In this document: one piece after another, positions 57,828 through 63,779 of the stretch | Layout: each line of letters begins with the position of its first letter | Position numbering within the stretch: position 1 is the stretch's first letter | Assembly (NCBI GenBank): GCA_014802445.1 | Contig: JAAVCF010000008.1 | Location: forward strand, 62,001 to 126,000 | Reading direction: 5' to 3' | Source: Bacteroides sp. | GTDB taxonomy: Bacteria; Bacteroidota; Bacteroidia; Bacteroidales; Muribaculaceae | Length of the DNA: 64,000 nucleotides | Program-made: the position numbers and the translations under genes | The notes under the pieces: generated by a model | Seen by the model: only the letters and a program-made list of their open reading frames with translations | What the model was told of the DNA's origin: nothing | Database searches by the model: none

Positions 57828-57843
57828 CATAATCCTGATTATG
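57828..57843 (+). promoter_or_regulatory. Palindromic operator candidate upstream of the metal-efflux operon
   Basis: CATAATC-CT-GATTATG is a perfect 7-2-7 dyad, 8 nt upstream of the -33 box of the histidine-rich protein promoter. The size and AT-rich arms recall Fur-family sites, but the regulator is unknown. Confidence 0.5.
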
Positions 57844-57851
57844 AGTTATCG

Positions 57852-57883
57852 CTTGGTTATTTCCCCGCAGATTGCTATTTTTG
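57852..57883 (+). promoter_or_regulatory. Promoter of the metal-efflux operon
   Basis: CTTG (57852-57855), 20 nt, TATTTTTG (57876-57883). The leader to the ATG at 57892 would be only a few bases. Confidence 0.6.
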
Positions 57884-62500: not shown

Positions 62501-62591
62501 TCTCGGCGGCTTGCTCTCTTCAACGCTGCTGAATCTCTTCGTTGTCCCCTGTTTCTACTTTATTATATCACGTCGAAAAAATAATTCATAA
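59523..62591 (+). CDS. Heavy-metal RND efflux permease (CusA/CzcA family)
   Basis: Proton-driven inner-membrane metal pump, 1022 residues from the ATG at 59523; a TTG three codons earlier overlaps the adaptor stop. The N-terminus [19 protein letters not shown] and the early motif [32 protein letters not shown] are diagnostic of the heavy-metal family. The TM4 proton-relay pair is in [16 protein letters not shown]. Twelve helices are recognisable. It lies between the adaptor and the outer-membrane channel with almost no spacing. Which metal it exports cannot be read from the sequence. Confidence 0.93.
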   Translation: [1022 protein letters not shown]

Positions 62592-63779
62592 ATGAAAAAA
62601 CAATTGGTTTTCCTGCTTGCCGCCGGTGCTCTCTCTTTCGGTCCCAGCGCTCATGCCATGACTTTTGACGAGGCTTTGGCCGCGCTGTCAGGCTCCCAGC
62701 CAACCATTGACTCTGAGGTGCTGGCTGCAAGGGCCGGAATAGAATCGCTCAAGGCGGATGCTTCCCTGCCCGGCCCCGAGGTGGAGTTCTCCTATGAGTG
62801 GGGGCTCCACGGCATCGGCACAAAGCTCAATGCCGGAGTGTCGCAGTCATTTGACTGGCCCGGGGTCTACTCTGCCCGCCATGAGGCGGTGAAGGAGGCG
62901 GAGCAGGCGCTTGTTGACTCGGAGCGCGCCAAGAGGCGTGAGCTTTCAGCCACTCTCCGTAGCCTTCTGGTTGACTACATTGCCGCGCGTCGCACTCTGG
63001 CGGCTCTCAATGAGGTTGGCTCGGTACTTGACCGTCAGGAGCAACTCATCAGGCGCGGCTATGAGGGGGGCGAAATCTCCATCCTGGATGTCAACAAGAT
63101 TACAATCGCTCAAGCGTCAATCCATCATGAAATCCATCTAGCCACATCTCGCGTGGAGGACCTCGAGGGCTCCATCTCCGAGACTTCCGAAATGGACACT
63201 CGCGAAATCCTTTCGCGACTCGATGATGCTTACCCCGTCATGTCAATTCCTGACGAGGAGCAGTATGTCCGCGACATGATGGCCAAGGACTCTGAAATCA
63301 TCGCCAACGCTTCTGAGGTGCGTCAGGCCGAAATCAGCGCCAGGATTGAGCGCCGCTCAAATTTCCCGGGCTTCTCCGCCGGCTACACCTACAGCCTTGA
63401 GCAGGGCGAAACTTTCAATGGCTTCTCCATCGGCATGACTCTTCCTTCTCGCGCCAATGTGAAGCGTGCCGCCGCGGCTCGTCTGCAGGCCGAGGCGGCA
63501 GCCATGGCCTCAATAGGCGTGGTTGCCACCCGCCGTGCTCAGTATCATGCGCTTGTGGCGTCCGCACGTCAACTGGAGTCGGAGATTAACAATCTCGGCC
63601 CGGTATTCGAGAAGTGCGACAACATCAAGCTGCTGGAAAAGGCCTATTCCGCCGGCCAGATTTCGCTCCTCGACTTCCTTCAGGAACTTGAGTATTTCTC
63701 TCAGGCGCGCCTGAATTATCTGGAGGACATCGGCCAGTACCATGTCACTCTGGCCAAGCTCAATCGCTATTCTTTTTGA
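62592..63779 (+). CDS. TolC family outer-membrane protein of the metal-efflux system
   Basis: Outer-membrane channel partner of the metal pump, 395 residues. A signal peptide covers about residues 1-22 (FLLAAGALSFGPSAHA). Two coiled-coil halves follow, with VEFSYEWGLHGIG and FPGFSAGYTYSLEQGETFNGFSIGMTLP as barrel-strand regions. It is shorter than CusC and has no lipobox. Its ATG immediately follows the pump stop, so the two are translationally coupled. The operon order is His-rich protein, adaptor, pump, channel. A strong terminator follows. Confidence 0.88.
   Translation: MKKQLVFLLAAGALSFGPSAHAMTFDEALAALSGSQPTIDSEVLAARAGIESLKADASLPGPEVEFSYEWGLHGIGTKLNAGVSQSFDWPGVYSARHEAVKEAEQALVDSERAKRRELSATLRSLLVDYIAARRTLAALNEVGSVLDRQEQLIRRGYEGGEISILDVNKITIAQASIHHEIHLATSRVEDLEGSISETSEMDTREILSRLDDAYPVMSIPDEEQYVRDMMAKDSEIIANASEVRQAEISARIERRSNFPGFSAGYTYSLEQGETFNGFSIGMTLPSRANVKRAAAARLQAEAAAMASIGVVATRRAQYHALVASARQLESEINNLGPVFEKCDNIKLLEKAYSAGQISLLDFLQELEYFSQARLNYLEDIGQYHVTLAKLNRYSF

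Follow-up and report, generated by a model that had tools for sequence, protein, structure and literature searches.

Two exported leader peptides that combine a metal motif with a C-terminal end of the kind discussed here, CutF and CruR, have been described in bacteria (PMC9973294; PMC9426467). According to the published description of CutF from Rhodobacter capsulatus and of CutF-like proteins (PMC9973294), these leaders are small and exported, they carry a metal motif as well as a C-terminal proline motif, and the metal-related gene that follows has its start covered by a hairpin. A similar combination is predicted for the DNA analyzed here, a stretch of 64,000 nucleotides from a 2.4-Mb draft genome of a Bacteroides sp. 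(family Muribaculaceae), hereafter called the window. However, the metal motif of CutF is of the type CxxxC, whereas the leader of the window carries an HxH cluster and Cys, and CutF gates a multicopper oxidase, whereas the window leader would gate a czcB-like efflux adaptor. Furthermore, the end of the window protein is of the RAPP/RGPP type, and no DUF2946 could be recognized in it. The CutF study also counted many CutF-like proteins in Bacteroidota, with RND genes among their neighbors (PMC9973294).

CruR from Bordetella pertussis, a DUF2946 protein, resembles the window leader in having a metal motif and the sequence RAPP a few residues from the stop codon, and RAPP was reported to be required for the control of its downstream genes (PMC9426467). 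In the published model, copper relieves the arrest, Rho terminates transcription and an uptake gene is turned off, unlike what is proposed below, and the 162-nt gap behind CruR is described without the start-covering hairpin tested in this study (PMC9426467). The same arrest motif is located near the end of further small and mostly exported proteins, namely ApdA, ApdP, ApcA and leaders of Streptomyces lividans, and some RAPP arrest leaders lie upstream of metal genes (PMC10951233; PMC12992588; PMC10987492). These differ from the window leader in serving the Sec/YidC pathway or actinobacterial metal genes. Copper-related RAPP/RGPP leaders were reported as not found in Bacteroidota in the recent survey of PMC12992588, whereas PMC9973294 counts CutF-like proteins in this phylum. 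While the kind of switch is known, what is new here is a class with HxH and Cys residues located at efflux pumps of Bacteroidales, its link to DUF6769 and the statistics of the hairpin.

For the window, it appears likely that a palindrome in front of a metal-efflux operon is the core of a dif site and that, separately from this, the small His-rich gene at the head of the operon is a cis-acting, metal-sensing RAPP leader of the pump genes. The features concerned, all on the + strand, are the following:

57822-57849, +, 28-bp site, most likely dif, with a XerD-type arm (57822-57832), a 6-bp spacer (57833-57838) and a XerC-type arm (57839-57849)
57853-57883, +, promoter of the Bacteroidetes type with TTGG (57853-57856) and TATTTTTG (57876-57883), read directly from the sequence
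57892-58296, +, His-rich leader of 134 aa, putatively exported, ending RAPPAV-stop, proposed metal-sensing arrest peptide (ORF reading)
58276-58287, +, RAPP codons AGA GCC CCT CCT, the first Pro codon (58282-58284) being the expected P-site codon of a stall
58284-58340, +, predicted hairpin over the czcB start, pairing 58284-58288 (TCCTG) with 58336-58340 (CAGGA) and 58291-58298 (GTGTGAAT) with 58323-58330 (ATTCACAC)
58345-59517, +, czcB-like periplasmic adaptor with a His-rich N-terminus and the end GHTHNH (TIGR01730 103.9 bits, cut-off 94.9; PF13437/PF16576)
59514-62591, +, heavy-metal RND pump of the CusA/CzcA family (TIGR00914 707.7 bits, cut-off 701.45; full-length matches to ZneA and CusA)
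62592-63779, +, outer-membrane efflux channel (OEP; PF02321, 87.6 bits)

The four-gene unit of a small His-rich protein, a His-rich adaptor, an RND metal pump and a channel, as proposed in the preliminary description, is borne out by the ORFs and profile matches, and the Pfam and TIGR matches support its assignment as a heavy-metal RND efflux operon in which both the first protein and the adaptor are His-rich. The pump is homologous over its full length to CusA and to the CzcA-like ZneA; however, two methionines of CusA, M573 and M672, which we take to be Cu/Ag site residues, are absent from the aligned stretches of the window pump. Its nearest named relatives belong mostly to Muribaculaceae (some records are labeled Porphyromonadaceae) and also to other Bacteroidales. 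A gap of 48 nt separates the leader from the czcB start. The promoter was assigned on the basis of TTG/TAnnTTTG, presumably the Bacteroidetes consensus; its TTGG begins 9 nt past the end of the palindrome, and since only 8 nt lie between the end of the −7 box and the first ATG (57892), the mRNA of the window operon may be leaderless. The same could be true for 10 of the 34 family leaders introduced below, in which 5-10 nt separate the −7 box from the leader ATG; any −7 box within 60 nt of this ATG was present in 18 of the 34.

RAPP and RGPP are published ribosome-arrest motifs (PMC10951233; PMC12992588; PMC10987492), and the P-site codon given above follows the P/A-site placement of the RAPP stall described in PMC10951233. 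In the window leader, RAPP is located two residues from the stop. Adaptor matches were present in 116 family genomes, and 53 czcB loci of the family were examined, comprising 13 near dif and 40 of the 98 that were not found near it. At these loci, upstream exported ORFs with HHH were searched for with the C-terminal end disregarded, which yielded 27 leaders, all of which (27/27) end in R-x-[PS]-P (25 RxPP and two RGSP). Seven further leaders were picked by the motif, giving 34 in total (a spurious RxPP ORF in genome G114 was left out), and neither the HHH nor the motif search found a leader at the other 19 of the 53 loci. Of 560 ORFs encoded around the dif sites, 14 carry the motif within their last 11 residues, and all of these are members of the leader family. 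The conservation of R-x-P-P is a computed result and stands out from an otherwise divergent alignment with a mean column identity of 18%, in which H25, C64, R129 and P132 are invariant and H23, C51 and P131 are conserved at 90% or more. At the N-terminus, a hydrophobic stretch precedes QFHHHH, as read from the alignment. Searches with Pfam models gave no match of the window leader to DUF2946 (PF11162) or DUF6769 (PF20558) at E ≤ 0.1; DUF2946 was matched by one of the 34 relatives (E 0.004), DUF6769 by eight (best E 4.1e-6).

The conserved His and Cys residues and the hydrophobic N-terminus would also be expected of a stable periplasmic metal binder acting in trans, such as a chaperone or a CzcI-like protein, with some other role for the R-x-P-P end, and CzcI is reported to head the czcCBA operon of Cupriavidus (PMC9973294). 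We regard this as quite unlikely, as few features of the divergent family are as well conserved as R-x-[PS]-P, which all 34 leaders have 2-6 residues ahead of the stop and at which a hairpin begins that such a role would leave unexplained. A periplasmic metal relay was suggested earlier for the two His-rich proteins; the small one is probably not a metal relay. What is conserved in it are the His and Cys residues and the C-terminal R-x-P-P, followed by the start-covering hairpin. Together, these three elements are the parts that a translational metal sensor needs, and by analogy we read the protein as a putative nascent-chain metal sensor of the CutF/CruR type.

In the predicted hairpin of the window, the sequence just ahead of the czcB start is paired with the Pro codons and the last leader codons, and since the Pro codons (CCU CCU) pair with the Shine-Dalgarno-like CAGGA of czcB, one stretch would serve both as arrest motif and as anti-start sequence. 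The structure has an MFE of −13.6 (z −2.36; 5 of 200 shuffles were equally good). Genome G016, a sister of the window genome, has the same architecture with an unrelated sequence between leader and czcB. For the tests across the family, 30 of the 34 leaders were kept, leaving out G120 (overlapping genes) as well as G028, G087, and G029 (gaps above 150 nt). Pairing of the codons after the motif with the 40 nt before czcB reached p<0.05 in 13 of 30 loci, compared with 5 of 79 control gene gaps. In a switch test, the cost of opening the czcB start was then computed with and without masking of a 16-nt stalled-ribosome footprint. For the window, masking lowered this cost from 11.4 to 2.2 kcal/mol, a gain of 9.2 kcal/mol that none of 100 shuffles reached, and both the window and G016 lay at the shuffle floor of 1 in 101. 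A gain of at least 2 kcal/mol was obtained at 11 of 30 family loci and in 10 of 79 controls; when compared with shuffles, 11 of the 30 family loci had p<0.05 (Fisher 2e-7). As far as computation goes, the hairpin is thus present in the window and part of the family, and a stalled ribosome is predicted to open it.

Named relatives of the pump were analyzed as a separately fetched set of 80 loci, of which 74 were assessable (two had no adaptor and four no upstream DNA). An RxPP leader was present at 41 of the 74, including Bacteroides fragilis (NZ_CP018937.1; with a 170-nt gap outside the range of the hairpin test), B. salyersiae, Parabacteroides distasonis, and Odoribacter laneus; one of the 41, L372, is probably spurious (RSPP, no His motif, adaptor ATG not found). 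Among the 32 of these 41 leaders that were suited to the switch test, 17 had p<0.05 (Fisher 2e-11), a value to be read with the possible overlap in species with the first set and the non-independence of related sequences in mind. Conversely, the start-covering hairpin was not seen at p<0.05 in 19 of 30 family and 15 of 32 named leaders, so that roughly half of the tested leaders do without it and the switch is not universal.

In the proposed mechanism, the nascent leader would be threaded into the translocon by its N-terminal signal sequence and would encounter metal outside with its HxH and Cys residues, and its last codons would encode the RAPP arrest motif, with the RAPP codons and those just after them forming one side of the hairpin over the czcB start. 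Without metal, export would pull the chain free, the ribosome would finish and leave, the hairpin would re-form and czcB would stay closed. With metal outside, the chain would be held, the ribosome would wait on RAPP, and the start of the pump genes would open. We infer for this leader the actual stalling, the binding and identity of the metal, and the direction of the response, in which metal would strengthen the stall and not relieve it. As CutF's own motif is described as causing no strong arrest in vitro (PMC9973294), stalling by a RAPP in a non-optimized context is not guaranteed. The leader might also work in reverse or by another route, with metal relieving the RAPP arrest or with the stall governing Rho-dependent termination between leader and czcB. 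CruR acts in this way with the same motif (PMC9426467), and the leaders without a start-covering hairpin, about half of those tested, as well as some gaps of 177-311 nt to czcB, would be consistent with it. For the window, though, such a route appears unlikely, since metal would be expected to turn an efflux pump on, whereas the gene that CruR shuts down is one for uptake, and since strong start-covering hairpins are predicted for the window and many relatives. Leaders lacking such a hairpin may use termination, by analogy with CruR.

The window leader shares with DUF6769 (PF20558) the His-rich sequence, the RAPP end, and the position before a His-rich adaptor, although its own sequence is unmatched by the model; Pfam gives this family no function, and a literature search yielded nothing on its function either. 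All 28 DUF6769 ORFs that could be read across the order (from 30 loci, two of which had no readable ORF) are His-rich and end in RAPP or RGPP, and most of them precede a His-rich, lipoprotein-like adaptor. For the 19 of these 28 that entered the hairpin test, the duplex signal was weak (p<0.05 in 3 of 19; Fisher exact versus controls p=0.18) and the switch gain modest (at least 2 kcal/mol in 7 of 19; p 0.02 versus controls). Also, a literature search combining arrest peptide, Bacteroid, efflux, and RAPP returned no publication. On balance, we lean toward the view that DUF6769 and its unrecognized relatives are Bacteroidales-wide, His/Cys-based metal-sensing RAPP arrest peptides that gate czcBA-type pumps via a stall-opened hairpin.

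Bacterial dif sites are described as 28-bp, single-copy, intergenic sequences at the replication terminus that consist of two 11-bp arms and a 6-bp spacer (PMC3025954; PMC3091885). The site in front of the operon, ATTTAACATAA-TCCTGA-TTATGAGTTAT (57822-57849), agrees with this description in arm and spacer layout, copy number, intergenic position, and location at the terminus, and differs in nothing notable except for the adjoining promoter of a metal operon. It is identical in 19 of 28 bases to the reverse complement of E. coli dif, ATTTAACATAA-TATACA-TTATGCGCACC (PMC3025954), with all 11 bases of the XerD arm conserved. The perfect dyad CATAATC-CT-GATTATG noted previously is indeed present at 57828-57843, inside this site. 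Perfect dyads of the form 7-N2-7 occur five times in the window and one to seven times in ten mononucleotide shuffles, a chance level, so that the significance of the dyad rests on the conservation of the longer pattern TTTAACATAA-N6-TTATG. This pattern is shared with G016, G010, and G056, where it lies upstream of the homologous operon. Of 149 family genomes, 60 carry exactly one copy of it, compared with 6 for the reversed control, and the window's genome likewise has a single copy. At the order level, the exact core showed no excess (18 of 198 genomes; control 18 in our own count), which means that the dif sites of other families must differ, if present.

In the near-closed genome G056, the sign of the GC skew flips at the site: the 10 preceding 20-kb samples are all positive, the 10 following ones all negative. 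In the single-contig genome G091, the sign changes close to the site; two samples immediately preceding it are slightly negative, and one of nine on the far side is slightly positive. The window's own contig showed the right but weak trend (0.022 before, −0.030 after), the cumulative maximum being 26 kb off. The genome of the window contains three tyrosine recombinase matches, two of which are strong XerC/D-like genes scoring 323.7 and 252.2 bits; the XerD cut-off of 329.6 is reached by neither. A literature search for Muribaculaceae, dif, and XerD yielded no publication. With these computed properties, the dyad is most likely the core of the chromosome's dif site, predicted to serve dimer resolution by XerC/XerD.

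The preliminary description had taken the dyad for a palindromic operator and proposed to search for it in related genomes upstream of similar operons. Of the 60 genomes with a single copy of the longer core, 13 had the operon in the fetched stretch (6-8 kb per side, shorter at contig ends) and 47 did not. An operator of a metal-responsive transcription factor, with both His-rich proteins relaying metal through the periplasm to the pump, would agree with the spacing of 9 nt between dyad and promoter, which is almost unchanged in G016, and with leader starts 29-183 bp from the site in eight genomes. The single copy per genome, the match to dif including the whole XerD arm, and the 47 genomes without the operon in the fetched stretch argue against it, as does another dyad, TTGCAACNNNGTTGCAA, which in relatives keeps a constant spacing to the −7 box of metal-efflux genes; we therefore consider it very improbable. 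Operators of the CRP/FNR, MntR, and Fur types were also considered, and were dropped in view of the TTTAA extension, the occurrence as a single copy, and the similarity to dif. A dif site that adjoins a promoter can evidently be mistaken for a perfect operator.

Linkage between dif and the operon is nevertheless far above chance, since among 42 genomes with matches to both dif and adaptor the two share a contig in 18 and are then always within 20 kb of each other. The arrangement within 20 kb spans nine genera (57822-63779 in the window; loci L099-L158), and in six genomes of genus g16, sites with one or two mismatches are, by their coordinates, equally close to the operon. This proximity could mean that dif is regulatory in itself, in that XerCD binding or local FtsK traffic changes transcription of the operon, yet the distance varies from about 0.5 to 19 kb, the flanks show shared gene orders, and most fetched stretches contain no operon, which makes such a role extremely doubtful. 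The left-hand neighbors of dif vary, and the orders lysA-dif-czc or dif-smpB are common to several genera, the two flanking genes being what we take to be lysA and smpB. We read the proximity as inherited gene order, dif lying beside the promoter because the operon sits at the replication terminus.

The idea that the operon is a Xer-mobile module flanked by a pair of dif sites was also rejected, as the next-best match in the 12-kb stretch around the window's site scored −6.2 compared with 37.3 for dif, and as the gene order around dif is common to several genera. In genome G131 (L108), a second dif-like site (score 18.8) is located about 3.2 kb from dif; a SOD-like gene lies directly beside dif and no czc operon lies between the two sites, so that a Xer-dependent insertion is possible there.

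The dyad TTGCAACNNNGTTGCAA was found once in each of 13 of the 149 family genomes (loci L219-L231; reversed control 0) and was not found in the window. It is followed at 28-29 nt by the start of a TAnnTTTG box in 12 of the 13 genomes, and the next genes in 11 of these 12 are metal-efflux genes (four P-type ATPases, one CDF, two SO_0444 permeases, three His leaders with czcB, and one czcB). In the remaining one (genome G067, L223:1041-1430), a small HHHH protein of 130 aa without NCBIfam match follows, and no recognized metal transporter comes after it in the available DNA. The dyad is a candidate operator of some metal regulator. At none of the seven loci inspected in the window's own genome was a −7 box present at +28, and the literature search for the TTGCAAC dyad gave nothing relevant among the matches listed. 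In G016 (L134), a TGCAAC-N3-GTTGCA dyad without a −7 box at the usual distance lies about 100 bp left of dif, on the side opposite to the operon, and looks like an old operator detached by a rearrangement at dif.

The predicted arrangement of leader and pump is seen in many gut Bacteroidales. With it, a Pfam family without assigned function, DUF6769, would gain a concrete and testable job, and nascent-chain metal sensing would be extended to the efflux pumps of common gut bacteria. If this holds true, these pumps would respond to conditions that an exported chain encounters beyond the cytoplasm, in addition to any transcription factor.
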